A DNA stretch of 64,000 nucleotides from Microbacterium immunditiarum (lineage in GTDB: Bacteria; Actinomycetota; Actinomycetes; Actinomycetales; Microbacteriaceae). Both the position numbers and the translations under genes were made by a program. The number at the start of each line of letters is the position of its first letter. Position 1 is the first letter of the stretch. Positions 41,847 to 57,956 of the stretch are shown in pieces. The stretch is taken from positions 3,782,001-3,846,000 of the forward strand of contig NZ_JACCBV010000001.1 of NCBI RefSeq assembly GCF_013409785.1, written 5' to 3'. The notes beneath the pieces were generated by a model. The model worked only from the letters and a program-made list of their open reading frames with translations, was not told where the DNA came from and ran no database searches.

Positions 41847-42395
41847 TCAGGCCGCTCTCGTCGCGAGCGAGTGGTAGTTCCCCGCGAAGAACACCAGCGG
41901 CTCGCCCGCGCTCGCCTCGGACCAGCTGGTGGCGCTCGCGAGGACAACGTCATGATCGCCGGCGTGCGCGACGGTCTCGATCCGCGCATCGAGCCAGCCG
42001 AGCGCGTCCGCGAGCACGGGGTGACCGGCAGGAGTGAGCGTCCAGTCGTCGTCCGCGAACTTGTCGACATCCTTGCGTGCGAATCGACGCGAGACGTGCT
42101 CGTGGTCGGCACGCAGGATCGAGACAGCGAACTCTCCGATCGGGCGCAGCGCGGCCCAGGTGCGGCTCGAAGGCATCGGGTAGAACGCAACCATCGGGGG
42201 GTCGAGCGAAACCGAGGTGAACGAGTTGCACGCCATTCCGACCGGGCCGTCACCGGTCATCGCCGTGATGAGCACGACCCCTGTCGGGTATCGCCCGAGG
42301 GCGTCGCGGAAGCCACGCTGCAGCAATTCTGCGGTGCCGCGTTGCTTGTCGTGGCGCAGGGAGCGGCCGGTGGCAGCAATGGTCGAGCGCGTCAT
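41847..42395 (-). CDS. Flavin reductase (FMN:NAD(P)H) domain protein
   Basis: A 182-residue protein of the HpaC/RutF-like group that supplies reduced flavin to a monooxygenase. Landmarks: A-L-G-R-Y-P-T-G-V-V-L-I-T-A near residue 27, C-N-S-F-T-S-V-S-L-D-P-P-M-V near 49, F-A-V-S-I-L-R-A near 80, and G-D-H-D-V-V-L-A near 145. ATG 42395 follows GGAGAGG; an earlier in-frame ATG at 42422 lies inside the likely operator. It is the last gene of the leftward series that begins with an LLM monooxygenase 15.5 kb upstream, its most likely partner. Confidence 0.88.
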   Translation of the reverse strand: MTRSTIAATGRSLRHDKQRGTAELLQRGFRDALGRYPTGVVLITAMTGDGPVGMACNSFTSVSLDPPMVAFYPMPSSRTWAALRPIGEFAVSILRADHEHVSRRFARKDVDKFADDDWTLTPAGHPVLADALGWLDARIETVAHAGDHDVVLASATSWSEASAGEPLVFFAGNYHSLATRAA

Positions 42396-42421
42396 GAGCG
42401 ACAATCCTCTCCGTTGAGACA

Positions 42422-42441
42422 TTGTCATAAGCGTATCACAA
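42422..42441. promoter_or_regulatory. Palindromic candidate operator before the flavin reductase gene
   Basis: TTGTCATAAGCGTATCACAA: 8-base arms with one mismatch and a 4-base centre, covering a TATGAC -10-like sequence on the minus strand. It sits between the flavin reductase gene and an IclR gene, whose product is the obvious candidate to bind it. Confidence 0.55.
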
Positions 42442-42516
42442 ATGAACAAACTGATGCCACGACGAATCACTATTGAACGTCCATGCCCGAGCGTACGCGA
42501 CCCGCACGCGGCCTCA

Positions 42517-43203
42517 TCAGCGGTGAGAAGCGAGGATGCTCTCCGCCGCGGTACGCGCGAACGAAGCGAGCTCGGCCTCTTCGGCGGCCGTGCGTAGCCC
42601 CTCGCCCGCCACCGAGACCATCGAGACGCACGCGGGGATGCCGTTGAGAACGAGGGCCACGGCGACGCCGTACGGCGGGCGTTCCGTCGGGACGGTGAAA
42701 GTGCCGACGTAACCCTGTTCTCGCGCCCGCGTGACGAGTGGATCCTCACCGGGCTCGTACGGCCGCAGACTCAATGTGGCGACTCTCGGGGGAAGCATGC
42801 CTTCCGGCATGCGGTACCCGACAGGCGTCATGAGATGGACTGCCGGACGAGTTGGAGTCGCGTGGATCGCGACGACGAGCGCGTCGCCGTCGGACACCAC
42901 CAGCATGGCGGAGTAATCCGTCGCGTCGGCGGCGGCCTGCAACGCGGGGCGCGCTCGTTCATTGAACGGGTCGTTGAACGCCTTCGCGAGTTCCAGGATG
43001 CCGATCCCCAATTGGTACAGCTTGCCCTCGCCTCGGCGAATCAACCGCGCTGACTCGAGTGACCGAAGCTGTCGGTACAGCGGCGGGCGCTGGGTGTCGA
43101 GGCGCCGCGCGAGCTCGGACACCGACAGTCCCTCCGGATTCTCCGCGAGCTCGAAGAGCACACGGATGCCTCGATCAACCGTCGTCGAACCGTCTTGCGC
43201 CAT
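42517..43203 (-). CDS. IclR-family transcriptional regulator (c)
   Basis: A 228-residue regulator. The N-terminal winged helix-turn-helix reads G-I-R-V-L-F-E-L-A-E, then L-S-V-S-E-L-A-R-R-L-D-T-Q-R-P-P-L-Y-R-Q-L-R-S-L. The effector domain covers about 80-225, with A-M-L-V-V-S-D-G-D-A-L-V-V and the closing helix A-R-T-A-A-E-S-I-L. The domain is somewhat shorter than usual. It lies between the aldolase and flavin reductase genes with gaps of about 110-120 bases on each side, so it may have its own promoter. One of three IclR genes of this region. Confidence 0.88.
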   Translation of the reverse strand: MAQDGSTTVDRGIRVLFELAENPEGLSVSELARRLDTQRPPLYRQLRSLESARLIRRGEGKLYQLGIGILELAKAFNDPFNERARPALQAAADATDYSAMLVVSDGDALVVAIHATPTRPAVHLMTPVGYRMPEGMLPPRVATLSLRPYEPGEDPLVTRAREQGYVGTFTVPTERPPYGVAVALVLNGIPACVSMVSVAGEGLRTAAEEAELASFARTAAESILASHR

Positions 43204-43315
43204 TTCTGTCCGCCTTCACCCCATCGTGCTCTCAACCGTTGCTCCATGAAGCTTACGGTCGTGGTTTCGGCGGTGACGGCGAAGTGCACAAGCGCGCAGC
43301 GTCCCCCGGTATTCG

Positions 43316-44020
43316 TCAGCGGTCGTGCGGCGTCTCGGCAGTTCTCAACCACATGTCCCACGCACGGCCGACCTGGCCCGCATTCGTGGTCGCTGCACTA
43401 TGCCCCTCTTGCTCGGTCAGATAGCGCACCGTTCCGAGCGAGATCGCGTCGCGCTGCAATGCGGCATTCTTCTCGGCGTAGATGGCGCGGTATACGGCAA
43501 GCGGCAGTGAGCCCGCGACCGTGACGGAGCCGTGGCCCCGCATGAGCGCCATGGGCGCGTCGCCCAGCGCCGCCGCGAGGGCGACGCCCAGGCCGGGATC
43601 GCGGATGAGCAGGTCGGTCCCGTCACCCCCGATGTCGGCGATTTCGAATCGGGCGACCCCGCCGCTGAGAAAGCCGGCCATATGGAAAACGGGACGGAGC
43701 GGAGCCTCCGTCACCCCGAACGGGATCACCGCAGGAGAGTGGCTGTGGACGACGGCAAGCACGTCGGGACGTGCCCGGTAGATCTCGGAATGGATGTAGC
43801 GCTCGAGGTACGGCTTGCGGTCGTCACCCGTGTTTCCGTCGAGGTCGAAGTCTTGGACGTCCGAGGCCGCAACCAGCGCGGGAGCCATGTTGCGGGCCAG
43901 CAGGAAGCGGTTCGGGTCGCTCTCGGAACGAACACTCACGTGTCCGAACGCGTCGAGCACTCCCTGGCTGACCAGGATGTGGTTCGCCTGCGCGAGCAGT
44001 TCGCTCTGGCTGGTTGACAT
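43316..44020 (-). CDS. Class II aldolase/adducin-family protein
   Basis: A 234-residue zinc enzyme of the fuculose-phosphate aldolase type. The zinc-binding histidines are in V-V-H-S-H-S-P-A and later in M-R-G-H-G-S-V; the start is rich in N-H-I-L-V-S-Q-G-V-L-D-A-F-G-H-V-S-V-R, typical for the family, in which the G-H-x-S segment binds phosphate or carboxylate. Family members cleave or decarboxylate hydroxy acids. In this operon it may split the carbon skeleton after deamination. It follows the aldehyde dehydrogenase by 44 bases. Confidence 0.86.
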   Translation of the reverse strand: MSTSQSELLAQANHILVSQGVLDAFGHVSVRSESDPNRFLLARNMAPALVAASDVQDFDLDGNTGDDRKPYLERYIHSEIYRARPDVLAVVHSHSPAVIPFGVTEAPLRPVFHMAGFLSGGVARFEIADIGGDGTDLLIRDPGLGVALAAALGDAPMALMRGHGSVTVAGSLPLAVYRAIYAEKNAALQRDAISLGTVRYLTEQEGHSAATTNAGQVGRAWDMWLRTAETPHDR

Positions 44021-44064
44021 GTCGAGTCCTCTCGGTGTGGCGCGGTCGAGGTGGGCGCCGATGT

Positions 44065-45558
44065 TCAGGCGGAGCGGAATACGCCGTCGACGCGTCTAGG
44101 CACGCGCGACGTGCCATTGATCGCGGCGCGCACCGGCGCAGGAAGTGAGCTATCGGGCACGGATTGGTAGGCGACCGGTCGCACGAAGCGGTCCAGGGCC
44201 GCAGCGCCGACCGAGGTCGATGCGGGTTGGGAGGTGGCGGGCCAGGGCCCGCCGTGTTGCTGCGCCCACGTCCAGGCGACGCCGGTCGGCCAGTCGCCTA
44301 CGGTCACGCGGCCGGTCTGCGAGGCGAGCACCTCCACGAAGCGTGCCGTGTCGGGGTCGTCGTCGCCGTCCGCGAACACAGCACCGGTCAGGCTGGCCTG
44401 GAGCGTGGCCAGCGCTGCCGTCGCCTGGTCGATCTGCTCGTACTCGACGACGACCGCGACCGCGCCAAAGCACTCCTCGAGCAGACGACTGCCTGCTCGA
44501 ATGGCATCGAGTGGTGCCGACAGCACAGCGGCGTCCGCCGACCAGCCCTCCCCGTTACCCTCAATTCGAGCGACCACGGTGGCACCCGCGCCGACCAGAC
44601 CGTCGATGCCCTGAGCGGTCGCGTGGGCGATCGCCTCGGTGAGCATCACCGGCGGAGGCGACTGACCCAGCGCACGACCGACCGCCTCGGCGGCGCCGTG
44701 CCCGGCAGGGACGAGGAGCAGCCCAGGCTTGGTACAGAACTGGCCGGAGCCAAGCGTGAAAGAGCCAGCGAAGCCATCCGCGATCTCGTCCATGCGCGCG
44801 GCGGCCCGGGGTGTGACCACGACGGGGTTGACCGTGCCCATCTCGGCGAAGACCGGGATGACGTCGTCGCGCTCGTTTGCGATCCGCCAGAGCGCGAGCC
44901 CACCCCGCTGCGAACCGGTGAAGCCGACAGCCCGAACTCCCGGCGCGCGCACGAGTTCAGCACCGATCTCAAGACCGACTACGAGCGAGAGCGTGCCATC
45001 GGGCGCACCCGCTTCCGCAAGCGCCGCCTGTGCGATCGCGACGAGGCGGATGCACGTGTGCACGTGTGCGGGATGCGCCTTGACGATCACCGGGCACCCC
45101 GCCGCGATCGCCGAACCGGTGTCGTTGCCCAGCGCTCCGAATGCGAACGGGAAGTTGCTCGCCCCGAAAACGGCAACCGGGCCGACCGGCCGGTTTGCCC
45201 GCACGAGGCGCGGCGACGTAGCCGTCGGGTTGTCGACTGCGATACCTAGGTAGCTGCCCTCCGCGGCGACGGTGCCGTAGAACCTCAGTTGATCGGCCAT
45301 CCTGCCGACTTCGCCGCTGAGGCGTGCTTCGCCCAGCGCCGTCTCCGTATCAGCGAGCCCCACGAGCTCATCGCGGTGCGCTTCGAGCGCTTCCGCGATG
45401 CGACCCAGCCACCGCTCTCGCTCGACAGCAGATGTTTCGCTCAGCACGCGTGCGGCCGCGACGGCGGACATGACCACGCCGTCGAGCTCCCCCGGCGCGG
45501 TGTCCTCCACGGCCGCGAGCGCGACACCGTCGCGGGGCCGGAAGCTGACGGTCGTCAT
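44065..45558 (-). CDS. Aldehyde dehydrogenase, 2-oxoglutarate-semialdehyde dehydrogenase type
   Basis: A 497-residue enzyme of the unusual ALDH branch that includes 2,5-dioxovalerate (2-oxoglutarate semialdehyde) dehydrogenase. Characteristic pieces: F-G-A-S-N-F-P-F-A-F near residue 130, V-I-V-K-A-H-P-A-H near 158, G-F-T-G-S-Q-R-G-G near 212, catalytic Glu in F-A-E-M-G-T-V-N-P near 240, and catalytic Cys in G-S-G-Q-F-C-T-K-P-G-L near 270. It overlaps the transaminase stop by four bases (ATGA), so both are made together. The pair converts an omega-amino acid to its semialdehyde and then to a dicarboxylic acid. Confidence 0.88.
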   Translation of the reverse strand: MTTVSFRPRDGVALAAVEDTAPGELDGVVMSAVAAARVLSETSAVERERWLGRIAEALEAHRDELVGLADTETALGEARLSGEVGRMADQLRFYGTVAAEGSYLGIAVDNPTATSPRLVRANRPVGPVAVFGASNFPFAFGALGNDTGSAIAAGCPVIVKAHPAHVHTCIRLVAIAQAALAEAGAPDGTLSLVVGLEIGAELVRAPGVRAVGFTGSQRGGLALWRIANERDDVIPVFAEMGTVNPVVVTPRAAARMDEIADGFAGSFTLGSGQFCTKPGLLLVPAGHGAAEAVGRALGQSPPPVMLTEAIAHATAQGIDGLVGAGATVVARIEGNGEGWSADAAVLSAPLDAIRAGSRLLEECFGAVAVVVEYEQIDQATAALATLQASLTGAVFADGDDDPDTARFVEVLASQTGRVTVGDWPTGVAWTWAQQHGGPWPATSQPASTSVGAAALDRFVRPVAYQSVPDSSLPAPVRAAINGTSRVPRRVDGVFRSA

Positions 45559-46898
45559 GCGAGGGTCCTGGTCGCTTCGGCGAGAACGTCAAGGGCGTCC
45601 TCCAGAAGATCGTCGCTGATCACGAGCGGCGGCAGCAGGCGGATCACATTGCTGTACGTGCCGGCCGTGAGCGTGAGCACGCCGCGCGCGTTGGCATGCG
45701 CTGCGACCTTCTTCGCGGCGTCAGGGTCCGGTGTGCGCGTGCCGGGAACGACGAACTCCATGGCCAGCATCGCGCCACGCCCGCGCACGTCTCCGATGGC
45801 GGCGCACTCGGCCTGCAGTTCCTTCAGCCGCGGCATCACGACCTCCTCGATGTGGCGGGCACGGCCGGGGAGATCTTCGTCCACGATCACGTCGAGGGCT
45901 GCGATGGCAGCGGCACACGCGACGGGGTTTCCCGCGTAGGTGCCTCCGAGGCCACCAGCGCGCACCGAGTCCATGATCTCTGCGCGGCCGGTGACCGCCG
46001 AGAGTGGCATGCCCGCCGCGAGTGCCTTGGCAGTGAGAACGATGTCGGGGACCACGCCCTCGTGGTCGACAGCGAACAGATCCCCCGTGCGCGCAAGCCC
46101 GGCTTGGATCTCGTCGGCGATGAAGACGATTCCATTCTCTTTCGCGAACTGCGCGACCTTCGTCATGTACCCCTCGGGCAACACGATGAATCCGCCTTCG
46201 CCTTGAACGGGCTCGACGATGATCGCCGCGACGTTGGCGGTTCCGACCTGTGTCGTGATCTGGTCGACGAGCTGCTCGAACGCCTCCTCCGCGATGCCGG
46301 TCTCCGTGGTGGCGGCGCCGGCCCAGCGGTACGGGTACGGCGACGGTACCCGGTAGACCTCGGGCGCGAACGGGCCGAACCCTTCCTTGTAGGGGACGTT
46401 CTTTCCCGTCATTGTCATCGTCAACAGGGTTCGGCCGTGATAGGCGTGGCCGAGGACCACGATGGCATCGCGACCGGTCCAGGTGCGCGCGATCTTAACC
46501 GCGTTCTCGACCGCTTCCGCACCAGTGCTGAAAAGCCCGGTGCGCTTCTCGAATTCGCCGGGGGTGAGACGGTTGAGCCTTTCGGCGACCTCTAGTGCGG
46601 ATTCGTACTCGGTGACCATGAAGCATGTGTGCGTGAAGCGATCGGCCTGCTCGCGTATCGCAGCGGTGACACGCGGATGCGATGCTCCCACGCTCGTGAC
46701 CGCGATTCCCGATGCCAGGTCGATGAGGTGGTTGCCGTCGACGTCGACAAGGATCCCCTCGCTCGCCTCCGCGATGAAGACAGGTAGGGTGACACCGAAG
46801 CCGGCTGCGATGTTCGACTCACGGCGGGCCTGAAGTTCGGTGGACAGCGGGCCTGGGATCGCCGTCTTGAGGATGCGGCGCTGCTCGGGCTCAGTCAC
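45555..46898 (-). CDS. gabT: 4-aminobutyrate-type omega-aminotransferase
   Basis: Class III PLP aminotransferase, 447 residues, normal length. The C-I-style PLP pocket shows F-S-T-G-A-E-A-V-E-N-A-V-K near residue 128, Y-H-G-R-T-L-L-T near 155, F-I-A-D-E-I-Q-A-G-L-A-R-T-G near 258, and the PLP lysine in L-T-A-K-A-L-A-A-G-M-P-L near 292. The sequence agrees with actinobacterial GabT, which deaminates GABA, but beta-alanine or 5-aminovalerate are close alternatives. It starts 14 bases after an IclR gene and overlaps the aldehyde dehydrogenase gene. Confidence 0.9.
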   Translation of the reverse strand: MTEPEQRRILKTAIPGPLSTELQARRESNIAAGFGVTLPVFIAEASEGILVDVDGNHLIDLASGIAVTSVGASHPRVTAAIREQADRFTHTCFMVTEYESALEVAERLNRLTPGEFEKRTGLFSTGAEAVENAVKIARTWTGRDAIVVLGHAYHGRTLLTMTMTGKNVPYKEGFGPFAPEVYRVPSPYPYRWAGAATTETGIAEEAFEQLVDQITTQVGTANVAAIIVEPVQGEGGFIVLPEGYMTKVAQFAKENGIVFIADEIQAGLARTGDLFAVDHEGVVPDIVLTAKALAAGMPLSAVTGRAEIMDSVRAGGLGGTYAGNPVACAAAIAALDVIVDEDLPGRARHIEEVVMPRLKELQAECAAIGDVRGRGAMLAMEFVVPGTRTPDPDAAKKVAAHANARGVLTLTAGTYSNVIRLLPPLVISDDLLEDALDVLAEATRTLA

Positions 46899-46912
46899 GG
46901 GGGTTCTCCTTG

Positions 46913-47725
46913 CTATGAGTAAGGCGTGCCTGCATGTGCGGGCAGGAAGTCGTAGATGAATTCGAGCTCGTGTGCCCCGCGCTCTAGAACCTCGCGATGC
47001 TCACGCCGGATCTCCGGCGTGAGCCGGCTGCGTGGTCCCGCGATACTCAGCGCTGCATACGGACGCCCGCTTGGGTTGCGGACGGCGCAGCTCGTCGATC
47101 CGGCTCCTTCGAACGCGTCGGCTCCGAGGACTGCGTCGTCCTGGTTCACTGCGAAGCCGGCGGCTCGAATCTCGTCGAGTGCCGCGAGCAGGGCGCGCCG
47201 GTCAGCCAAGGCTCCGTGCGGCTTCGGCAGATCGCCGGTCGGGTAGAGCTCACGAACCTCGGCGTCGTCGAGGGCGGCGAGCAGGCACCGACCGATGCTG
47301 TACATGTAAGCGGGAGCGATCTCACCCGTGCGCACGCGAGCGGCCACGACCGCATCCTCCGCGGTCACACCTGCGACGAACCGCACGGAGGCTCCGTCGA
47401 GCACGGCGAGATGCACCGTCGCCTGTGACTCCGCCGCCATCCGCTGCAGCGTCGCATGTGCCGCTCCGATCACTGGAGTCCGACGTTGGATAAGCGATCC
47501 CAACCGGACGAGCCGAGGACCGCCCGCATATTCGCCGTCCTCGGTCAGAACCACGTAACCCGCATCCTCCAAGGGATCCATCGTCCGCTTCGCCGAGCGC
47601 TGGGTCACTCCCCAGCGAACGGACAGAGCCTCGAGCGACATGCTGCGCTCCATCTCGAGCAGCCCGAGGATGTCGAGAAACCTCCCCGACGCAGCCATCC
47701 ACGCGTCGGGCCGGTGGCCGCTCAC
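46913..47725 (-). CDS. IclR-family transcriptional regulator (b)
   Basis: A 270-residue IclR protein. The winged helix region is F-L-D-I-L-G-L-L-E, then M-S-L-E-A-L-S-V-R-W-G-V-T-Q-R-S-A-K-R-T-M-D. The effector domain has V-H-L-A-V-L-D-G-A-S-V-R-F-V, Y-M-Y-S-I-G-R-C-L-L-A-A-L and P-Y-A-A-L-S-I-A-G-P. The GTG start at 47725 overlaps the stop of the upstream IclR gene (GTGA), an unusual tandem of two coupled regulators. The two proteins may form hetero-oligomers or sense different intermediates; this is inference. Confidence 0.87.
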   Translation of the reverse strand: MSGHRPDAWMAASGRFLDILGLLEMERSMSLEALSVRWGVTQRSAKRTMDPLEDAGYVVLTEDGEYAGGPRLVRLGSLIQRRTPVIGAAHATLQRMAAESQATVHLAVLDGASVRFVAGVTAEDAVVAARVRTGEIAPAYMYSIGRCLLAALDDAEVRELYPTGDLPKPHGALADRRALLAALDEIRAAGFAVNQDDAVLGADAFEGAGSTSCAVRNPSGRPYAALSIAGPRSRLTPEIRREHREVLERGAHELEFIYDFLPAHAGTPYS

Positions 47726-48498
47726 TCGAGGACCTCGGTGATCGCCGCGGTCGCGGCGCGCAGCTCTGCGACACTGCCGCCGAGGAGGGCCGGCCGATAG
47801 CGGTCGATGGGCATCATGACGCTGACGGCTCCCACCACTTCGCCGCCTCGTCCGCGCACGCTCATCGCGAAGCTCACCAGATCCGGGTCATTCTCCGCGA
47901 CCGAAAGTGCGAATCCCCGCGCCCGAGTCGCATCGAGTTCTGCGCCGAGTCGGATCATCTCGGGCGACTGCGAGCCGAGCGCTGAATGGAGCCGGTCGAC
48001 GTCCTTGAGCGCCATCTCGGCCAGGATGGCGCGCCCCCCGGCGGACCCCCGCGCGGGAACGACCAGGCCGAGGCGGCTGACCACGTGGAGCTCTGCGGTC
48101 GACTCGACGCAGTCGACCACTTGCACGCCTGCGCCTGTGATCGCGGCAGGGTTCGTCGTCATCAGCATCATGAGATTGACGGTCTCACCGAGCGACGCGC
48201 TGAGCCGTTCCAGGGATTCGTGTGCGGCGGTGATGATGCGCGCCCGTCCGCCGGCGCGACTGACGCTGCCCAGAGCCGGACCGGGGACGTACTCGCGCTT
48301 GTCTCCCTGCACAACGAACCCGCGGTGACGGAGAGTCGACAGCAGCCGGTGCGCGGTCGAAAGGGCGACGCCGAGTTCCGTGGCTACGTCCGAGACTCGG
48401 ACTACTCCGTCCCTGCGCAGGATGAGGAGGATTCGCAGGACATTGTCCGCCGAGTCGAGAATCGGCTGGCGTGGTTGCTTCGGCGTGACGTCGGGCAC
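47722..48498 (-). CDS. IclR-family transcriptional regulator (a)
   Basis: About 258 residues. Helix-turn-helix: N-V-L-R-I-L-L-I-L-R-R, then V-R-V-S-D-V-A-T-E-L-G-V-A-L-S-T-A-H-R-L-L-S-T-L. The effector domain includes V-N-L-M-M-L-M-T-T-N, R-L-G-L-V-V-P-A-R-G-S-A-G-G-R-A and the end V-V-G-A-V-S-V-M-M-P. GTG 48498 is preferred: AGGAGAA lies upstream inside the last codons of the SDR gene. An ATG at 48543 would overlap that gene by 38 bases. It is coupled to regulator b by a 4-base overlap. Confidence 0.88.
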   Translation of the reverse strand: MPDVTPKQPRQPILDSADNVLRILLILRRDGVVRVSDVATELGVALSTAHRLLSTLRHRGFVVQGDKREYVPGPALGSVSRAGGRARIITAAHESLERLSASLGETVNLMMLMTTNPAAITGAGVQVVDCVESTAELHVVSRLGLVVPARGSAGGRAILAEMALKDVDRLHSALGSQSPEMIRLGAELDATRARGFALSVAENDPDLVSFAMSVRGRGGEVVGAVSVMMPIDRYRPALLGGSVAELRAATAAITEVLE

Positions 48499-48505
48499 GA
48501 GCAGA

Positions 48506-49300
48506 TCAATTCTCCTGGCCGGCCGCGTTCCACGGAGTGTCATAGCGTCCGACCCCGGCGGCGCCATCGACGCGCACGTCCTCACCGCTCACGAACGCGG
48601 AGCGCGACGACAGCAGATAGCACACGACATCGGCGATGTCGGTTGCCGTCGGCGTATGCGCGAGGGGCGTCGCCTGCCGTGCGCGGGCCGCGTACTCGGG
48701 CGACACGAATGGGCCGATGCCCTCGCGATAGCCGTGGTCGACGAGACCGGGCGCGACGGAGTTCACGCGGATTCCGTGCGCTCCGACCTCCATGGCGAGG
48801 ATCTTCGTGAGCATCACCAGGGCCGCCTTCGAGGTGGAGTAGCGCCCGCCGCCTACTCGGCCGGTGTACGCCGCGCCGCTCGCCATCGTCACGATCGAGC
48901 CGGGAGTGCCGCTCGCGATCATGGCCCGGGCGGCGGCCGTTGTAACTACGAATGAGCCCGTGAGGTTCGGGGTCATGACGGTGTTCCAGTCGGCGACGCT
49001 CAGGCTGAGCAGCTCCCCATAAGGGGCGATGCCGACGTTGCTGGACACCGCGTCGAGTGGGCCGAACTCCGCTTCGGTCGCGGCGACAGCATCCGTCATC
49101 ACCGTCTCGTCGGCGACGTCCCCCGCGATGGCGACCACGCGGTGACCGTGGGCCTGCAAGCGCGCCGCGCTCACGGCGAGCCGGTCGGCGTTGAGGTCGA
49201 CCATGCCCACGGCCGCGCCATCGCGAACAAGCTGCTCGGTGACCGCGAGGCCGATGCCGTCAGCGGCGCCCGTGACGAACGCGACGCTCGGCGACGTCAT
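48506..49300 (-). CDS. Short-chain dehydrogenase/reductase
   Basis: Classical SDR of 264 residues that oxidises or reduces an alcohol/ketone with NAD(P). The cofactor loop is V-T-G-A-A-D-G-I-G-L near residue 9, with D-L-N in M-V-D-L-N-A-D near 36 pointing to NAD(H). The S-S-N-V-G-I segment lies near 85, and the catalytic Ser and Y-x-x-x-K are in T-M-A-S-G-A-A-Y and G-R-Y-S-T-S-K-A. A proline-glycine pair follows in S-V-A-P-G-L-V. It overlaps the preceding hydrolase gene by four bases, so it acts in the same pathway. Confidence 0.9.
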   Translation of the reverse strand: MTSPSVAFVTGAADGIGLAVTEQLVRDGAAVGMVDLNADRLAVSAARLQAHGHRVVAIAGDVADETVMTDAVAATEAEFGPLDAVSSNVGIAPYGELLSLSVADWNTVMTPNLTGSFVVTTAAARAMIASGTPGSIVTMASGAAYTGRVGGGRYSTSKAALVMLTKILAMEVGAHGIRVNSVAPGLVDHGYREGIGPFVSPEYAARARQATPLAHTPTATDIADVVCYLLSSRSAFVSGEDVRVDGAAGVGRYDTPWNAAGQEN

Positions 49301-50199: not shown

Positions 50200-51115
50200 G
50201 GGATTCGACCTCCTCCAGGAATCGGGTCACGATCTGTGCGAACCACTCCGGGTGCTCGCGGTACGGGTAGTGGCCGCACTTGTCAACGACCGACAGGTAG
50301 GTGCGCTTCTCAGAGCGCCGCACGGTGTCGAATAGCGCGAGCCCGCGGCTGAGGTGCGCCGTGCGGTCATCGCGTCCCCACACGATCTGAGTCGGGCGCT
50401 GGAGGCGACCCTCGGCGAGCCACTGGAGTGTCACTCGCTTGTCCTTCGCCAGTTCAGGCAGGAAGAGCCCGCCCAGAAGGTCGTGCTCGCGGCATTCGCG
50501 TACACCCTTCTGGTACTGCTCCGACTCAACGATCGACCAGGACTGCGCGATGAACTCGTCCGTGACCCAGTCGCGCTGATAGCAGTAGTTCTGATAGAGC
50601 CAGCGCGCGCCCGCCGGCGAAACGCCGATCGGCGGATTCGAGAGCGTCACCTCGTTGGTGGCGACTCCCGGAGACAGCGTGCCGCTGTTGACGATCGTCA
50701 GGCTGCGAACGAGGTCCTGCCGCTCGAGAGTGGTGCGGGTGGCGATGTATCCGCCCCGCGAGTGGCCGACGAGGTGCACAGGCCCGAGGTCGAGCACCTC
50801 CAGGAAGTGCATGAGGTGATCGACGACCTTGGCCATCGTGTAGTCCTCGAGCCGCAGCGGCGCATCAGAGTAGCCTTGCCCTGGCTTGTCGTAGGCGATC
50901 ACGCGGTGAGTGCCTTTCAGCGCGTGGAATGCGGGGGCCCAGGAGTTCGCCCCACTGGCGGCGGATGCTCCGCCGAAATTGCCACCGTATACGAATACGA
51001 CGGGGGCGCCGGTGCCCGCAGCGGCGTACCACGTACGGATGCCGTCGACATCGATCCACGAGCCGCCGGGGAGGTCGTAGTAAGTCGGAACGGGTTCGTC
51101 GAGCCGGCTGCTCAT
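50180..51115 (-). CDS. Alpha/beta hydrolase with Ser nucleophile (C-C, ester or amide hydrolase)
   Basis: A 311-residue hydrolase of the meta-cleavage-hydrolase/RutD-like group. Nucleophile elbow V-G-H-S-R-G-G-Y near residue 135, oxyanion region V-Y-G-G-N-F-G-G near 46, Asp in W-G-R-D-D-R-T near 248 and His in K-C-G-H-Y-P-Y-R near 285. The start ATG 51115 overlaps the deacetylase stop by four bases. Family members open aryl ring-fission products or hydrolyse esters and carbamates. It may act on the product of the monooxygenase and deacetylase steps. Confidence 0.87.
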   Translation of the reverse strand: MSSRLDEPVPTYYDLPGGSWIDVDGIRTWYAAAGTGAPVVFVYGGNFGGASAASGANSWAPAFHALKGTHRVIAYDKPGQGYSDAPLRLEDYTMAKVVDHLMHFLEVLDLGPVHLVGHSRGGYIATRTTLERQDLVRSLTIVNSGTLSPGVATNEVTLSNPPIGVSPAGARWLYQNYCYQRDWVTDEFIAQSWSIVESEQYQKGVRECREHDLLGGLFLPELAKDKRVTLQWLAEGRLQRPTQIVWGRDDRTAHLSRGLALFDTVRRSEKRTYLSVVDKCGHYPYREHPEWFAQIVTRFLEEVESRDFAVC

Positions 51116-51981
51116 CGCTGGAATCCCTCGGGGTTGCTGAGCACCCAGTCGGCCATCGACTGCTTGGTGCACCACCACACGTTCTCGTGCGCTTTCGCGT
51201 GTTCGAGCGTCCGTCGCAACGTCGGGATGAAGCTGGGGCGGCCGGCCATGTGGCAGTGGAGCACGATGTCGGTCCACGACGGGAAGCCTGCGAGACCCTC
51301 GGCGTAGCAGGTGTCGAACTGGTCGCGGAAGCCCTGGAAGAACACCTCGGTGCCGTTGTTGGGCATGATCCAGTGGACGAAGTCGTTGGCCGCCATGTTC
51401 GCCTTCGGCAGGACGGCGATCACTCGGTCGCCGACGTCCTGGAGGAAGGGCACATCGTCGCTGGCGTCATCGCCTAGCCACGTTATTCCCGCGTCAAGCA
51501 TGATGTCGGGAGTCTTGTCGGTGCTGGAGTTCGCGGGGCTGGCCCACCCGGTCGGGCGGACTCCGGATGCGGCCTGGATGGCGTCGAGCGTGTCCGCGAC
51601 GGTACGGCGCTCTCCCTCTTCGCCGGCCTCGTTCATGAAGCGGTCGTTGACCCAGCCATGACCCACGACGTCGTGGCCAGCGTCGGCGATCGCGGCGACG
51701 ACCTGCGGCCAGTCCGCCGCAATCTTCCCCGAGATCGAGAAGGAAGCGTGAACTCCGTACTCGTCGAACAAGTCGAGCAGCCGCCAGACCCCGGTTCGCA
51801 CACCGTACTCGCCGTATGACAGCGAGAACGCGTCTCTCGTGCCCTTCTGTGCCTGTAGGGCGACGTGCGATTGGTTGTCGAAGGCTTCGAGCGCGACGCC
51901 GATCGACATCGCGATCGTCGCGTCGCTTGGCCAGGCGACGGTGCGTCTGGCCGCCTCGCGAGCGCTCTTCCAATTGGTCAT
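51112..51981 (-). CDS. NodB-type polysaccharide deacetylase-family amidohydrolase (PuuE/imidase-like)
   Basis: A 289-residue cytoplasmic member of the NodB-fold family. The metal-site regions are recognisable: F-S-L-S-Y-G-E-Y-G-V-R near residue 52 where classical deacetylases have T-F-D-D, H-D-V-V-G-H-G-W near 103, the W-A-S-P segment near 145 and V-L-H-C-H-M-A-G near 240. This pattern is that of allantoinase PuuE and cyclic-imide hydrolases rather than of chitin deacetylases. No signal peptide is present, in line with ring opening of a small cyclic amide inside the cell. ATG 51981 follows GGAGGAG. Confidence 0.82.
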   Translation of the reverse strand: MTNWKSAREAARRTVAWPSDATIAMSIGVALEAFDNQSHVALQAQKGTRDAFSLSYGEYGVRTGVWRLLDLFDEYGVHASFSISGKIAADWPQVVAAIADAGHDVVGHGWVNDRFMNEAGEEGERRTVADTLDAIQAASGVRPTGWASPANSSTDKTPDIMLDAGITWLGDDASDDVPFLQDVGDRVIAVLPKANMAANDFVHWIMPNNGTEVFFQGFRDQFDTCYAEGLAGFPSWTDIVLHCHMAGRPSFIPTLRRTLEHAKAHENVWWCTKQSMADWVLSNPEGFQR

Positions 51982-52012
51982 TGCGTGTACTCCTCCAGAA
52001 CGTGTACTAGGT

Positions 52013-52042
52013 GCCGGGACGGGCAATGCGGCCCGTCCCGGC
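52013..52042 (-). terminator. Hairpin between the Liv-type binding protein and the hydrolase genes
   Basis: Perfect 12-base inverted repeat GCCGGGACGGGC / GCCCGTCCCGGC with a 6-base loop, 14 bases after the binding-protein stop. The next gene in the same direction starts 32 bases further on. It may be a partial terminator or an mRNA-stability hairpin. Confidence 0.75.
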
Positions 52043-52055
52043 TGACCTTGCATGC

Positions 52056-53369
52056 TCAGCCTTCAAGCGAGGCGAGCACACCGTCGAGGTCGATGACGTC
52101 GGCATCGACGTGCTCCCACTGTCGGGAGCCACCGTTGAACTGCTGCATCCGCACGCTCTCGAACGGGATGGGGTCGGTCGCCGACGTGTTGAACGTGATG
52201 CCGGGCGCCGCCATCGGAACGGTGACGTCCTTCAGGTTGAGTGCCTGGTTGATGACGTCGACGCGGGTAAGTGCGGGGGCGGAGCGGAGGATCTCGGCGA
52301 TCAGCTGGGCCTGCAGCCAGCCGGTGGCCATGTCGATGCTCGGTTCCTCACCGGGTGCATACTCGGCCGCGGCAGTGACGAACTCCTCGTACTCGGGTGA
52401 GGACTCGTCCAGCGGCACCTTGTTGGTGCCGCTGACCACCCCGTCTGCGGCGACGGGGTCGGCGAGATGGGTAACGACCGAGCAGGTGAAGCTGACGAGG
52501 ATGTGCGGCTGCCAGTCCGCATCCCGGATGCCGTTGATGGCCTGGGGGCAGGTCGCTCCGGCGCCGGCGAGGATCACGGTGTCCACGCCTGCAGCCTTGA
52601 GGTTGGTGATCTGTGCGGTCACGGTCGGGTCGCCAACCTGGTAGGCCTCGACGAGCGTGAGCTCGGCATCGGTGCCCTCGAGGCCAGCCGTCACGCCGGC
52701 GGTGAACGCGTCCTGCAGGGCGCCGGCCAGCGCGAGAATGCCAACCTTCTGCGACTGCCAGGTGTCGATCGCGTGAGTCGCGAGGCCGTAGGCGTCGGAT
52801 GCGTAGGGCACGAGGCCGTCGGTCGTGTTCAGGTGCGCGAGGCGAGACGACATCGGCTCGCCGCCGACCGTGGACAGGAGGATCGGAACGCATTCGGCGT
52901 TGAGCTGATCCCACACGGATGTGGTGCCGGCGGAACTCTGGATGCCCACCATCGCGAAGACCTGCTCCTCCTGCAGGAGTTCGTTGGTGTTCGAGACGGC
53001 CTTGGTCGGGTCGTACTGGTCGTCCTTGCCGATGAACGTGATCGTGCGCCCGTCGATGCCTCCCTCGGTCGCGTTGAGGTGCTCGAAGTAGGCCTTCATG
53101 CCGCGGGCGACGGCGCCGATGTTGGCGAGCGGCCCGCTGTCGGGGTAGGTCGCGCCGAGTTTTATCTCGTCATCGGAGATTCCCTGCGATGGCTGGTAGT
53201 TCTCGCAATCGGCGACGTCGACGGCACCTGGAGCGGCTGTGGGAGTGGGACCGTCCGGTTCGGCACTGGCGGACGATCCGCGGCCGGTGCAACCGGAGAG
53301 GACGAGGCCGAGCGCGAGCACAGCCGCGGTGGTGAGCAGCGCTTTGTGGGCGCGGGAGGGGAGGGTCAT
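52056..53369 (-). CDS. Branched-chain-amino-acid-type (LivJ/K) solute-binding lipoprotein
   Basis: Extracytoplasmic binding protein, 437 residues. Lipoprotein signal with lipobox L-V-L-S-G-C near residue 26. The mature domain starts I-K-L-G-A-T-Y-P-D-S-G-P-L-A-N-I-G, the classical type-I binding fold, with G-R-T-I-T-F-I-G-K-D-D near 105. Liv-type systems carry amino acids, amides, urea and aromatic acids, so the ligand is open; the gene neighbours suggest a nitrogen compound. The start overlaps the LivM stop by four bases. Confidence 0.9.
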   Translation of the reverse strand: MTLPSRAHKALLTTAAVLALGLVLSGCTGRGSSASAEPDGPTPTAAPGAVDVADCENYQPSQGISDDEIKLGATYPDSGPLANIGAVARGMKAYFEHLNATEGGIDGRTITFIGKDDQYDPTKAVSNTNELLQEEQVFAMVGIQSSAGTTSVWDQLNAECVPILLSTVGGEPMSSRLAHLNTTDGLVPYASDAYGLATHAIDTWQSQKVGILALAGALQDAFTAGVTAGLEGTDAELTLVEAYQVGDPTVTAQITNLKAAGVDTVILAGAGATCPQAINGIRDADWQPHILVSFTCSVVTHLADPVAADGVVSGTNKVPLDESSPEYEEFVTAAAEYAPGEEPSIDMATGWLQAQLIAEILRSAPALTRVDVINQALNLKDVTVPMAAPGITFNTSATDPIPFESVRMQQFNGGSRQWEHVDADVIDLDGVLASLEG

Positions 53370-54424
53370 GCCATTTCCTTTCGGGCGAGCTGAGCCGAGG
53401 AGCCGCGGCTGTGCGGCTGCTCGGTTGTGCTTGTTTGTTGTGCAGTGCGGGTGCGGGGAGTGGAAGGAAGGATGCGGTCGACGAGGCGACCGATGGCGCC
53501 GGCGATGCCATCGCGCATGACGAGCACCACGATGATCAGCACCGCGCCATAGATCACTTGCGCGAGCACGGGATCCGCTTCAGAGAGCATCACCGGAAGG
53601 CGCTCGGCGATTGCGGCACCGATGATCGGACCGAGGATGGACGTCGATCCGCCGACCACGAGCGCCGCGAGGAACTCGATGGACCCTCCGACGGTGACGT
53701 ACACCGTGTCGGAGGAGATGACGCCCTGGGTGACCGAGAACAGCGCACCCGCCGCGCCCGTGAACGCGGCGCTCAGTGCGAATACGCCGATCTTGGCGCG
53801 AGCGATGTCGACGCCCATGGCGACGGCAGCGGTCTCGTTGTCACGCATGGCGACCAGGGCAAGACCCGAGCGACCCTGCGCGACGTTGTGGGCCATGACC
53901 ATTGCAGCGATCACGACGATGAGGGCGACGAAGAACCCGAACTGGTCGCTTGCCAGGCCGGTCCATTCCGGTGCCGGCATTCGCGGAAGGACCTTGCCGA
54001 GGTTGCCGCCCGTGAGGTCCTTCAACTTGAGGATCAAGCTCGGGAACATCGCAGCGATCGCCATGGTGATGATCGCCAGATACAAGCCCTTGATTCGCAG
54101 CGCAGGCACGCTGATGGCAAGGCCTCCAACAGTGGCGAAGACCACAGCGACCGGGAAGGCCGCATACCACTCCCACCCGGCATCCTTGACCAGGATGGCT
54201 GCGGTGTAGGCGCCGATGCCGAACAGTGCGCTGTGGCCGATCGAGGTCACGCCGCCGAAGCCGGTGAGCATGCTCAGGCCGATCGCTGGCAGGGCGACGA
54301 TGAGGACGCGCGTGTAGTTCTGCACCACGAACGGAAGGTTCGTGAAGGGAATCGTGACGGCGAACACCAGGGCCACCGCACACACCACGAAGAAGAGGTT
54401 GCGCTTCGTCAGGAGGCGTCTCAT
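53366..54424 (-). CDS. livM: Liv-type ABC permease LivM
   Basis: Membrane permease of 352 residues with about nine spans. Typical LivM features: P-A-I-G-L-S-M-L-T-G-F-G-G near residue 45, G-H-S-A-L-F-G-I-G-A-Y-T, the long loop with R-I-K-G-L-Y-L-A-I-I-T, and the M-R-D-N-E-T-A-A contact loop for the ATPases, near residue 200. The C-terminal 40 residues are polar and cytoplasmic. Four-base overlaps join it to LivH upstream and to the binding protein downstream. Confidence 0.92.
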   Translation of the reverse strand: MRRLLTKRNLFFVVCAVALVFAVTIPFTNLPFVVQNYTRVLIVALPAIGLSMLTGFGGVTSIGHSALFGIGAYTAAILVKDAGWEWYAAFPVAVVFATVGGLAISVPALRIKGLYLAIITMAIAAMFPSLILKLKDLTGGNLGKVLPRMPAPEWTGLASDQFGFFVALIVVIAAMVMAHNVAQGRSGLALVAMRDNETAAVAMGVDIARAKIGVFALSAAFTGAAGALFSVTQGVISSDTVYVTVGGSIEFLAALVVGGSTSILGPIIGAAIAERLPVMLSEADPVLAQVIYGAVLIIVVLVMRDGIAGAIGRLVDRILPSTPRTRTAQQTSTTEQPHSRGSSAQLARKEMA

Positions 54425-55305
54425 GCGCGCACCACCTTGACGCTGCCGAAGAGACCCGCGGGCTTCGCGAGCATGACCACCAACATCACGATGACCGGAA
54501 CCGCAAGTGACAGGTCAGTGCCGATGAAGGGCACGTACCCGGTGATTAGGCTTCCCGCCACTCCGAGCGCCAGGCCCGCCACGATCGCGCCGATGGGGGA
54601 GTCGAAGCCGCCGAGAGTGGCAGAAGCCATCGCGTACACGAGCACGGGGAGCATCATCGCCGGCTGCAGGAACAGCCCGAGGCTCGTCACCAGCGCCCCC
54701 GCAATCGCGCCGAGGGATGCGGCCAGACCCCACCCGACCGCCAGCAGACGGGACGTAGGAAGTCCCGCGAGTTTTCCTGACTCGGTGTTCTCAGCCACCG
54801 CCCGCAGTCCGAGTCCGAGCTTGGTGTGGTTGAAAAGCGCCCATAGTCCCACGCTGATGACGGCGAGTGTTGCGACTGCCCCGAGCGTGTCGAAAGGGAT
54901 CACAACACCGCTGAGGGTGATGTTGCCGACGGGGAACAACGAAGGCAGTTCCCGCGGATCCGACTTGAACAGCCACAGACCGATCGAGTTCAACAGGGTG
55001 TAGAGGCCGATCATCACGATCACCATGACGAGATGGTCTCCGCGGGGAACGATGCGGATGAGCCCGCGCTCCAGACCAGCGCCCGCAAGGAAGGACACAA
55101 TCACGGCGAGCGCCAATGCGAGCCAGATGTTGAACCCGATGCTGACGAGGAGCCAGACTCCGTAGGTCGACAGCATCGCGAGTTCACCCTGCGCGAAGTT
55201 GACCGTGCCGGAACTGCGGAACACCAGCACGAGTGCGAGCGCGAGCGCGGCGTAGATGCTGCCGTCGCCGAGTCCGTCGATGACGCGCTGCACGAAGAGG
55301 TCCAT
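54421..55305 (-). CDS. livH: Liv-type ABC permease LivH
   Basis: A 294-residue permease with about eight spans. LivH landmarks: D-G-L-G-D-G-S-I-Y-A-A-L-A-L near residue 10, F-A-Q-G-E-L-A-M-L near 36, and the A-T-P-ase contact loop G-L-G-L-R-A-V-A-E-N-T-E near 165, with G-G-F-D-S-P-I-G-A near 232. It follows the LivM/LivH order typical of actinobacteria, starting one base before the LivF stop. It pairs with LivM to form the channel. Confidence 0.92.
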   Translation of the reverse strand: MDLFVQRVIDGLGDGSIYAALALALVLVFRSSGTVNFAQGELAMLSTYGVWLLVSIGFNIWLALALAVIVSFLAGAGLERGLIRIVPRGDHLVMVIVMIGLYTLLNSIGLWLFKSDPRELPSLFPVGNITLSGVVIPFDTLGAVATLAVISVGLWALFNHTKLGLGLRAVAENTESGKLAGLPTSRLLAVGWGLAASLGAIAGALVTSLGLFLQPAMMLPVLVYAMASATLGGFDSPIGAIVAGLALGVAGSLITGYVPFIGTDLSLAVPVIVMLVVMLAKPAGLFGSVKVVRA

Positions 55306-55306
55306 G

Positions 55307-56023
55307 TCAGCCTCCTAGGTAGGCCTGGCGCAGCGCGTCGCCGGTGAGAAGCTCTGCCGCGGGGCGGCTCGCGGAGAGATAGCCAGAGGTGAGTACATGT
55401 GCGCGGTCCGCGATGCCCAACGCCAGCTCGGCCGTCTGTTCGACGATGAGCATGGATAGCTTTCCGGTCTTCGCCAGTTCGCCGAGCTGCGCGAACAGTT
55501 CTTGCGTCATGATCGGCGATAGTCCAAGCGAGGGCTCGTCCAGCAGGAGGAGGCGTGGATTCGACATCAGGGCCCGCACCACCGCGAGCATCTGCTGCTC
55601 GCCGCCAGACAGGCTGCCGGCCAGCTGCGGGAGACGATCAGCGAGACGGGGGAAGACCTCCAGCCAACGCTCACGCTGTTCGTCGGCGGCACGGCGGTCT
55701 CGACGTGAGTACGCGCCGATGCGAAGGTTCTCGTCGACCGTCATGTTGACGAAGGTTCCCCGGCCCTGCGGTACAAGTGCGATTCCCAGGCGCGTACGCT
55801 GTTCGGCTGATCGTCCCCGCAGGGACACTCCATCAAGACGGGCCTCGCCTGTGAACGGAAGGAGTCCGGCGATTGCACGCATCGCGGTCGTCTTGCCGGC
55901 ACCGTTGGAGCCGAGCAGAACGACGACTTCATTGCGGCCGATTGTGAACGACACGTCGCGCAACACCTGAACGTTGCCGTATCCCGCACGCAGACCGCTG
56001 ACTTCGAGCAGGGACTGGCTCAT
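55307..56023 (-). CDS. livF: Liv-type ABC ATPase LivF
   Basis: A 238-residue ATPase. Walker A L-G-S-N-G-A-G-K-T-T near residue 37, signature L-S-G-G-E-Q-Q-M-L near 138, Walker B L-L-L-L-D-E-P-S-L-G-L near 160 and the switch region I-V-E-Q-T-A near 195 (Gln-Thr where many have His). P-Q-G-R-G-T-F near 85 is typical of LivF. The start overlaps the LivG stop by four bases (ATGA). Confidence 0.93.
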   Translation of the reverse strand: MSQSLLEVSGLRAGYGNVQVLRDVSFTIGRNEVVVLLGSNGAGKTTAMRAIAGLLPFTGEARLDGVSLRGRSAEQRTRLGIALVPQGRGTFVNMTVDENLRIGAYSRRDRRAADEQRERWLEVFPRLADRLPQLAGSLSGGEQQMLAVVRALMSNPRLLLLDEPSLGLSPIMTQELFAQLGELAKTGKLSMLIVEQTAELALGIADRAHVLTSGYLSASRPAAELLTGDALRQAYLGG

Positions 56024-56787
56024 GCCGCCTTCCCCAAGTAGGCGCGGATGACATCCGGATTGTTGACGACCGACTGCGGATCGCCCTCCGCGACCTTTCG
56101 GCCCGCGTCGAGCACAACCACGTGATCTGCGACGGTCATCACCATGCCGATGTGATGCTCGACGAGAAGAACGGTGAGATCGCGCCGTTCGGCGATGTCG
56201 CGCACGAGCTGCGCAAGTTCCTCCACCTCGCTGTGATCGAGACCGTTGGCGGGCTCGTCCAGCATGAGCAGCTGGGGGTCCGACATGAGGGCACGCGCGA
56301 GTTCGACCCGTTTCTGTGTGCCGAATGGAAGCGACGACACGGTCGTCTCGGCTACGTGGGTCAACCCGATCTCATCGATCACGGCATCGGCCTTCGCGCG
56401 GGTGGCTTGCATCTCGCGACGTGCCCGGGGAAGCCGCAGCAGGTCGGCGACCATGCCGGATGAGGTAGCCCCGTGTGCACCGGCAAGCACGTTCTCGCGC
56501 ACGGTGAGAGTGCCGAAGAGCGCGAGATTCTGGAACGTGCGGGCAATGCCGATCCGGACCGCGTCATGAGCACGTACGGCGAGCACATCGATGGCGTTGA
56601 TTGTGATCGCACCGTTGGATGGCCGGTAGAGACGGCTGATGCAGTTGAACAGCGACGTCTTGCCCGCCCCGTTCGGGCCGATGAGAGCGCACACCGTGCC
56701 GGGCTGAACAGAGAAGCTGAGACCCGACAGCACCTGTAGGCCACCGAAGTGGAGACTGACCGCCTTCACCTCGAGGTGCGCGCTCAC
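56020..56787 (-). CDS. livG: Liv-type ABC ATPase LivG
   Basis: A 255-residue ATPase. Walker A I-G-P-N-G-A-G-K-T-S near residue 38, the relaxed signature L-P-F-G-T-Q-K-R-V-E-L-A-R typical of LivG, Walker B L-L-M-L-D-E-P-A-N-G-L-D and the switch His in V-E-H-H-I-G-M-V-M. The start is GTG 56787, whose GTGA overlaps the stop of the LLM monooxygenase gene. The frame stays open upstream, but that sequence belongs to the other gene. Confidence 0.92.
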   Translation of the reverse strand: MSAHLEVKAVSLHFGGLQVLSGLSFSVQPGTVCALIGPNGAGKTSLFNCISRLYRPSNGAITINAIDVLAVRAHDAVRIGIARTFQNLALFGTLTVRENVLAGAHGATSSGMVADLLRLPRARREMQATRAKADAVIDEIGLTHVAETTVSSLPFGTQKRVELARALMSDPQLLMLDEPANGLDHSEVEELAQLVRDIAERRDLTVLLVEHHIGMVMTVADHVVVLDAGRKVAEGDPQSVVNNPDVIRAYLGKAA

Positions 56788-57956
56788 CAGGACCAGCCCC
56801 GCTCGCTCGGCGGAGTCCACACCCCACGCTCGGCCAGGGCCGAGAAGACTCCTTCGAGCCGTGCGATCTCTTCTGGTGCCCACAGGAACGGGGTGAGGAG
56901 GAAGTTCTTCAGCCCGGTTTCGCGTTGGATACCGGCGAGCTGCTCGGCGACGGTCTCGGAGGTGCCGACAAGAACGCTGCTGCCGGCACCGACGCCGATA
57001 CGGCGGATCTGTTCGTCCCAGGGCAGTCCCTCGAGAAGCTTTGCGTACGTTGCGCTGTTCGCCAGGAAGAATTTCGCGAAGCCGGCACCCGCTTCCACAT
57101 CGACAGCGTCGAGGAACCATTGGTAGCGCTCCTGCGCCTCCTCTTCGGTGTCGCCGAGGACGATCGAGATCGATCCCGCGACCTGCACGGCGCCCGGCTC
57201 TCGGCCGGCCGCCTCGGCTGCCGCCGCCACGTTCTCAACCTGTGCTCGCACGATTTCGACGTCGTCGACCACCGCAGTGAAGCCGAAGTCGCAGTGGCCC
57301 GCAATCGTCTCGATCCCTGCCGGAGAAACTCCGGGGTTGAAGATGGGCGGCATCGCCTGCACCGGAACCGGACCTGCCATGGTGCCGGCCACATCGACGA
57401 ACTCTCCGTGGAATTCGACCTTCTCCCCGACGCCCGCTGCCCACAGCGCCTTGACTGCAGCGATGGACTCGCGCGCCTGGTCGTAGCGACGCTCGTCCGG
57501 AACGTCATCCCCACCGAACAGCGCCGATTCGCCAGCCTTCACCCCGGGAACCGCGTTCCAAGCCCAGCGCCCGTTGCTGATCGCATCGAGGTTCGAACCG
57601 ATGCGGGCGATGACCGCGGCCGGCAGATACCGCGTGTGCAGCGTCGTCACCACCCCCAGGTGTTCGGTCGCGAGCATGACCACGGGGGCCCAAAGAGGTG
57701 CGTAGATTCGCGGCTCGCCGTGGCCTGCCGCGATGTTCGCGGGTGCGTTGGCAGCGTAGGTGTCGGCGAAGAATGCGTAATCGAAGCCGACACGTTCGAC
57801 CGTCCGAGCTAGTGCCTGGTGCACGCCGACGTCGAGTGGATTCGGGTTCGCGGCAGCGACCGTCCCGGAAGTAACGTTCTGCGACTTCGTGTTCGGCCAC
57901 ATCAGGCCGAACCGCATCTGATCGTCGATGCGGCGCTTCTTGGGCATCATCGCCAT
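56784..57956 (-). CDS. LLM-class flavin-dependent monooxygenase C (RutA-like)
   Basis: Luciferase-like oxygenase of about 390 residues and first gene of the 17-gene leftward series. Landmarks: R-F-G-L-M-W-P-N near residue 16, V-G-F-D-Y-A-F-F-A-D-T-Y near 57, L-G-V-V-T-T-L-H-T-R-Y near 100, D-A-I-S-N-G-R-W-A-W-N near 125, and V-L-V-G-T-S-E-T-V-A near 340. This form (with N-A-V-P-G after the N-G-R segment) is that of ring- or C-N-cleaving oxygenases such as RutA. Reduced FMN should come from the flavin reductase at the far end of the series. ATG 57956 (MAMMPKK) has GAGGGG upstream. Confidence 0.88.
   Translation of the reverse strand: MAMMPKKRRIDDQMRFGLMWPNTKSQNVTSGTVAAANPNPLDVGVHQALARTVERVGFDYAFFADTYAANAPANIAAGHGEPRIYAPLWAPVVMLATEHLGVVTTLHTRYLPAAVIARIGSNLDAISNGRWAWNAVPGVKAGESALFGGDDVPDERRYDQARESIAAVKALWAAGVGEKVEFHGEFVDVAGTMAGPVPVQAMPPIFNPGVSPAGIETIAGHCDFGFTAVVDDVEIVRAQVENVAAAAEAAGREPGAVQVAGSISIVLGDTEEEAQERYQWFLDAVDVEAGAGFAKFFLANSATYAKLLEGLPWDEQIRRIGVGAGSSVLVGTSETVAEQLAGIQRETGLKNFLLTPFLWAPEEIARLEGVFSALAERGVWTPPSERGWSW

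Follow-up and report, generated by a model that had tools for sequence, protein, structure and literature searches.

The question raised by this locus is whether 17 co-directional genes of Microbacterium immunditiarum, at 57956..41847 of the window (the whole 64,000-nucleotide stretch analysed, positions 3782001-3846000 of a single-contig 3.9 Mb genome), make up one catabolic operon, and on what kind of compound their products might act. The initial annotation envisaged a single operon, with a RutA-like oxygenase, for the breakdown of a cyclic amide, imide or N-heterocycle to an omega-amino acid, and this interpretation was partly supported. Seventeen open reading frames (ORFs), every one leftward and free of internal stops, were confirmed, and conservation in other genomes was found to cover the first ten. 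The locus is thus best described as a genuine ten-gene module of catabolic type that is rare, conserved and apparently mobile, followed by an extension found only here. The reading favoured for the core, with a probability of about 0.5, is that it is a horizontally acquired, IclR-controlled module, the products of which would import a small cyclic amide-like compound and open the ring by oxygenation dependent on reduced flavin mononucleotide (FMNH2), together with hydrolysis.

The division into core and extension derives from comparison with other genomes. Searches of genome contigs with the LLM flavin oxygenase, the product of the first gene, confirmed four loci, two in Leucobacter (60 and 59% identity) and two Chloroflexi fragments (29 and 28%). 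At the first Leucobacter locus (L004, from Candidatus Leucobacter sulfamidivorax) the order LLM-LivG-LivF-LivH-LivM-substrate-binding protein (SBP)-PuuE-like-hydrolase 1-hydrolase 2-SDR is the same as in the window, with identities of 49.8-68.6%. Hydrolase 2 is the exception, being split there between two frames (36.5 and 54.3%), possibly through a mistake in the assembly. The second locus (L005) carries the first nine core genes, its contig stopping inside hydrolase 2. An IclR gene lies upstream of the LLM gene at both loci. Among ten further L004 ORFs scanned around the core, one is that IclR gene, the single downstream ORF is without a match, and the eight others, all upstream, match ScpA, pseudouridine synthase, prephenate dehydrogenase, cytidylate kinase, EngA, DUF817, RraA-like and YhhN proteins. 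Neither the L004 nor the L005 stretch contains a match at E ≤ 1e-5 to the gamma-aminobutyrate (GABA) transaminase (GabT), the aldehyde dehydrogenase (ALDH), the aldolase-like protein or the flavin reductase. Since Leucobacter synteny stops after ten genes and the extension enzymes are absent there, 48506-57956 was taken as the core and 41847-48498 as the extension, the link of which to the core is observed in this genome alone. The view that the 17 genes constitute one conserved operon is therefore not supported: in the same order, ten of them recur in L004 and nine in L005.

Within the window, gene starts were chosen by eye from the sequence (Table 1); several mechanically derived ORFs (LivG, hydrolase 1 and the flavin reductase) have spurious N-terminal extensions. 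The frequent four-base overlaps noted previously were borne out, these being present at 8 of the 16 junctions; there is in addition a single 20-base overlap and a single 1-base gap, and the remainder are gaps of 74 (SBP/PuuE-like), 7 (SDR/IclR1), 14 (IclR2/GabT), 44 (ALDH/aldolase), 112 (aldolase/IclR3) and 121 bases (IclR3/flavin reductase). Genes 1-14 are, by these measured overlaps and small gaps, tightly packed. IclR1, IclR2 and the GabT, ALDH and aldolase-like genes lie a short distance beyond the core and could share its transcript; the last two genes, IclR3 and the flavin reductase, have wider spacing and might form separate units. The strong hairpin between the SBP and PuuE-like genes has arms of 11-12 bases with no T run after it, and could possibly set transporter versus enzyme levels; the corresponding gap in L004 is 14 bases and lacks a hairpin. 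Scans of the window for promoter consensus sequences (0 found, 1.2 expected) and terminators (5 found, 6.5 expected) were uninformative, and inspection by eye together with a palindrome scan revealed no operator shared between the window and the Leucobacter upstream regions.

Table 1. Positions of the core and extension genes, of flanking elements, and of related loci in other genomes (identities are to L004 proteins).
Feature	Position	Strand	Remarks
LLM flavin oxygenase, core gene 1	56784..57956	-	390 aa
LivG-type ATPase, core gene 2	56020..56787	-	GTG start, 4-base overlap with LLM stop; 60.6%
LivF-type ATPase, core gene 3	55307..56023	-	62.3%
LivH-type permease, core gene 4	54421..55305	-	BPD_transp_2; 68.6%
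LivM-type permease, core gene 5	53366..54424	-	BPD_transp_2; 54.3%
Substrate-binding protein, core gene 6	52056..53369	-	Peripla_BP_6; lipobox-like LSGC; 49.8%
74-base gap with G+C-rich hairpin	51982..52055	-	Between SBP and PuuE-like genes
PuuE-like ring amidohydrolase, core gene 7	51112..51981	-	289 aa
Alpha/beta hydrolase 1, core gene 8	50180..51115	-	GHSRG (Ser); 63.3%
Alpha/beta hydrolase 2, core gene 9	49297..50199	-	GHDDG; 36.5% and 54.3% to two frames
SDR dehydrogenase, core gene 10	48506..49300	-	52.1%
IclR-type regulator 1, extension	47722..48498	-	HTH_IclR and IclR_C; 32% to IclR gene upstream of L004 core
IclR-type regulator 2, extension	46913..47725	-	IclR_C
GABA transaminase (GabT), extension	45555..46898	-	NF004714 and TIGR00700 above cut-off
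NADP-type aldehyde dehydrogenase (ALDH), extension	44065..45558	-	
Class II aldolase-like, extension	43316..44020	-	Nearest NCBIfam PhtC decarboxylase, below cut-off
IclR-type regulator 3, extension	42517..43203	-	Pfam: HTH only
Flavin reductase, extension	41847..42395	-	Flavin_Reduct; 121 bases after IclR3; possible FMNH2 supplier
Mutator-type transposase, truncated, left border of block	40980..41540	+	Transposase_mut, profile 18-127 of 379
Tyrosine integrase remnant, right border of block	58618..59250	+	Phage_integrase, profile 52-169 of 172
rve_3 transposase piece	60302..60925	+	
Hydrolase 2 copy, L004	17840-18740		
Hydrolase 2 copy, L005	9028-9469		
Clade B operon, L036	452-15479		
Clade B operon, L024	8321-19413		

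The core begins with the oxygenase and a complete Liv (HAAT-type) ATP-binding cassette (ABC) importer, the two ATPases, two BPD_transp_2 permeases and Peripla_BP_6 binding protein of which were recognised by Pfam, in agreement with the earlier prediction. Membership of the LLM family was likewise confirmed for the oxygenase. The narrower description as RutA-like was not, the protein scoring 67.7 bits against the NCBIfam RutA model (TIGR03612, cut-off 498.3) and 159.2 bits against NtaA/DmoA (TIGR03860, cut-off 279.7). Ranking by fold placed BdsA closest, the nearest group comprising BdsA/DszA, the riboflavin lyase RcaE and HcbA1, with RutA lower. These group C FMN oxygenases share with the window protein the fold and five O2-pocket positions, at 25-26% identity by structure. 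The motif associated with flavin-N5-peroxide chemistry is given as F/L - T/S - NxV (x branched) - A - F/L/Y (PMC8234197); F62, T105, N134, V136 and F226, residues mapped by hand on the alignment, are kept in 22 of 22 rows, and the window protein departs from the motif at the branched x and at the Ala (see below).

For the next enzyme, the previous assignment as a PuuE- or imidase-like hydrolase held: it groups with PuuE allantoinase, and its structure is nearer to PuuE and HP0310 than to the CE4 deacetylases. With 28% identity to PuuE by structure and 135.8 bits against the NCBIfam PuuE allantoinase model (TIGR03212, cut-off 424.6), it stands as a relative of the PuuE allantoinase/HP0310/HxnM cyclic imidase group. 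Hydrolase 1 has the expected Ser nucleophile, and its nearest sequences in the PDB are monoalkyl phthalate and meta-cleavage hydrolases. The Asp nucleophile proposed for hydrolase 2 is present in the window and is not conserved, since both Leucobacter copies have Ala at that position (GHAES and GHAEA); judged from these motifs, the protein may not be a classical hydrolase.

Taken in order, the predicted activities suggest a route in which the dedicated Liv-type system would import a small cyclic compound, and the LLM oxygenase, fed with FMNH2, would oxygenate the ring and cleave a carbon-heteroatom bond, perhaps by the flavin-N5-peroxide chemistry suggested for DszA, RutA and HcbA1. The PuuE-like enzyme would then hydrolyse a cyclic amide or imide bond, hydrolase 1 could split an ester, amide or C-C bond in the opened chain, and the SDR would oxidise or reduce a carbinol or ketone; the role of hydrolase 2, the nucleophile position of which varies, is uncertain. 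A cyclic amide or imide is favoured as substrate by analogy with the PuuE group, and a nitrogen-containing substrate is no more than plausible. The omega-amino acid end product, on the other hand, depends solely on GabT and ALDH, both of which sit in the non-conserved part. A sequence of oxidation, cyclic imide hydrolysis by an HP0310-related enzyme and amide hydrolysis is found in the hxn nicotinate pathway of Aspergillus nidulans (PMC9304392), although the available account of that pathway describes no LLM oxygenase, and HxnN is present there in place of alpha/beta hydrolases.

Several observations bear on how the module may have been acquired. Among 396 phylum and 396 order genomes (overlapping samples), the PuuE-like protein was found at E ≤ 1e-60 in the own genome only, while the LLM protein at E ≤ 1e-70 was present in 2 of 398 family genomes (the own genome and G849) and in 2 of 54 Leucobacter genomes, both already known and one with two copies. 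Its best match outside the own genome among 98 relatives was 35% identical (E 4e-24). A protein database search, in which scoring was confined to the 7998 candidates with most words in common, delimited a discrete LLM subfamily of 33 proteins including the query (E ≤ 1e-40, identity at least 46%). Linkage of the LLM and PuuE-like genes in further assemblies was judged indirectly, from contigs of equal size and with the longest contig only per 90% cluster, and suggests physical linkage in five. Names agree for three of these (Nocardioidaceae, contig size 129099; Micromonospora sp. MA102, 143705; Nonomuraea sp. NPDC050790, 120673), the other two being Leucobacter sp. USHLN153 (463942, named on the PuuE side only) and a contig of 51334. 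Together they account for 5 of 14 PuuE-like relatives (at least 50% identity, contigs >30 kb) and for 5 of 7 clade A LLM relatives (see below) on such contigs. The G+C content is 0.662 in the core, 0.676 in the extension, 0.694 in the left flank and 0.648 in the right flank. The sparse distribution, the transposase and integrase remnants on both sides and the modest G+C shift point to horizontal gain.

A number of results weigh against the module as proposed. By fold, LadA and EmoA score as high as HcbA1, and neither is among the N5 group in the accessible N5-flavin papers. The window oxygenase has Ala135 for the branched x of the published motif and Pro208 for its Ala. HP0310, a member of the PuuE fold group, is reported to be inactive on allantoin and all other compounds tested, and 9 of the 14 PuuE-like relatives show no LLM protein on a contig of equal size. 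Neither the L004 nor the L005 core has an adjoining flavin reductase. The core is only slightly below the left flank in G+C content, and comparison with G017 and G028 did not establish an empty site: the left-flank genes are arranged differently there, and these two stretches hold none of the 17 proteins at E ≤ 1e-20. More generally, the content and order of the genes, their conservation and the fold classes are shown, while the reactions and their sequence, a nitrogen-containing substrate, regulation by IclR proteins and a shared pathway for any part of the extension are predicted.

The extension enzymes are central to the alternative that all 17 genes form one operon converting a single N-heterocycle or cyclic amide to an omega-amino acid. 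GabT scores above the cut-off of two NCBIfam models, so that the omega-transaminase annotated previously is clearly a GABA transaminase; the accompanying ALDH, annotated previously as of 2-oxoglutarate-semialdehyde type, is nearest in sequence to the NADP-type dehydrogenases 1eyy and 3v4c, the NCBIfam models among its listed matches all being far below cut-off. The three regulators are of IclR type; in Pfam, IclR3 matches the HTH of the family without matching IclR_C. GabT and ALDH, with the aldolase-like enzyme, could link a semialdehyde or omega-amino acid product to central metabolism, and the flavin reductase could supply reduced flavin, which would suit the chemistry. (Elsewhere in the window, a further flavin reductase is hinted at by 139 bases at 14683-14821 on the forward strand that share 72% identity with this gene.) The close packing of genes 1-14 with its eight four-base overlaps, the position of all 17 genes between the same mobile-element remnants, and an aldolase-like gene that equals the core in rarity (at E ≤ 1e-30, the own genome alone out of 297) argue for such an operon. 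However, the extension is missing at both Leucobacter loci, each of the last two genes comes after a sizeable gap (112 and 121 bases), and GabT has a second copy, 57% identical, elsewhere in the genome. Leucobacter genomes also carry GabT-type genes at other sites, one of them on the contig of the core some 75-85 kb away, and at ten GabT-type loci (eight Leucobacter, two from the own genome; flanks ≤1.5 kb) matches to the window ALDH reach at most 28%. A weaker point is that, of 7775 ALDH relatives in the protein database at E ≤ 1e-60, none of the best 120 is on a contig equal in size to a core-bearing one. A single 17-gene operon is therefore considered unlikely.

A module of the same type could instead act on a ring devoid of nitrogen, such as a cyclic sulfone, thioether or lactone, with the oxygenase working as DszA or riboflavin lyase and the PuuE-like enzyme attacking another bond. 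The sulfone-cleaving BdsA is indeed the closest fold to the LLM protein, and the closest sequences to hydrolases 1 and 2 belong to ester and C-C hydrolases, but the characterised relatives of the PuuE-like enzyme act on small cyclic amides, and none of the 17 genes has sulfur assimilation as its best Pfam or NCBIfam match, such that this too seems improbable. Far less probable still is a divergent form of an established route, whether for pyrimidines (Rut), riboflavin/lumichrome, pyridine or trigonelline. In each of these, the Rut and RcaE/Lum sets included, an LLM protein or flavin reductase is paired with hydrolases and dehydrogenases, and riboflavin lyase is the second-best PDB profile match of the oxygenase. 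The Rut operon (RutA-G) resembles the locus in having an LLM oxygenase, an alpha/beta hydrolase and a flavin reductase in one catabolic cluster; it has a permease where a Liv importer occurs here, and the PuuE-like hydrolase is additional. Rut membership was rejected, RutA, RutD and RutF models being far below cut-off and no RutB, RutC, RutE or RutG model or Pfam domain appearing among the listed matches of the 17 proteins. The lumichrome cluster, in the available part of its description, uses P450, xanthine oxidase, Rieske and extradiol enzymes (PMC12746152); none of the four types is present among the Pfam matches of the 17 proteins, and the riboflavin/lumichrome route was ruled out by gene content. 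A literature search that mostly did not extend to subscription journals found no described pathway with this gene set, as had been anticipated.

The cyclic-amide module favoured here defines a compact ten-gene unit, the substrate of which is open to direct assay. Catabolic clusters without an assigned substrate are common in themselves, but were the proposal true, it would add a subfamily to the few FMN oxygenases known to break stable carbon-heteroatom bonds and would give PuuE-type hydrolases a further part in ring opening. Candidatus L. sulfamidivorax, whose genome bears the core, is reportedly a sulfonamide degrader, judging from a paper title.

A tree of 36 LLM rows splits into two clades of 18 with 100/100 support. 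Clade A has F[NS]PG in 18 of 18 rows and holds all seven PuuE-linked rows, while clade B has FNAG in 18 of 18; in a control with nine labelled rows the PuuE-linked label formed one clade, an outcome equalled in 41 of 500 label shuffles. Two clade B loci, L024 (G849) and L036 (a second copy in the L004 genome), both encode an Opp-type SBP with ATPases, an LLM protein, Amidohydro_2, M19 and M20 proteins and an SDR, L024 having in addition a flavin reductase, and L036 a PanE-like gene, a permease and another LLM gene. Like the core, they combine a sister LLM (51 and 55% identity), an SDR and hydrolases with an adjoining ABC importer; unlike it, they have Opp-type, Amidohydro_2, M19 and M20 components in place of the Liv, PuuE-like and alpha/beta hydrolase components. 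This is an undescribed parallel gene set. At least three assemblies contain both clades, namely the L. sulfamidivorax genome, Leucobacter allii (P0127, P0144) and a Nocardioidaceae assembly with the two on one contig (P0129, P0148), so that clades A and B may each act on a different portion of the same larger natural product. It is tentatively proposed that an undescribed actinobacterial route, that of clade A, starts with the oxygenolytic opening of a small cyclic amide by the new LLM subfamily, which has Pro for the O2-pocket Ala, and that clade B is a parallel route for a peptide-like substrate.

A plasmid home for the core was rejected, tblastn matches in plasmid records (582 for the PuuE-like protein, 815 for LLM) all being below 60% identity; among four plasmid neighbourhoods retrieved, the two that carry annotation do not list the core gene set, and 20 pattern matches in viral contigs included no relative. 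A Streptomyces chartreusis plasmid (L018:13198-20316) carries RibBA, a flavin reductase, a distant LLM protein (34%), an esterase and a second LLM protein, as if flavin supply were built in.

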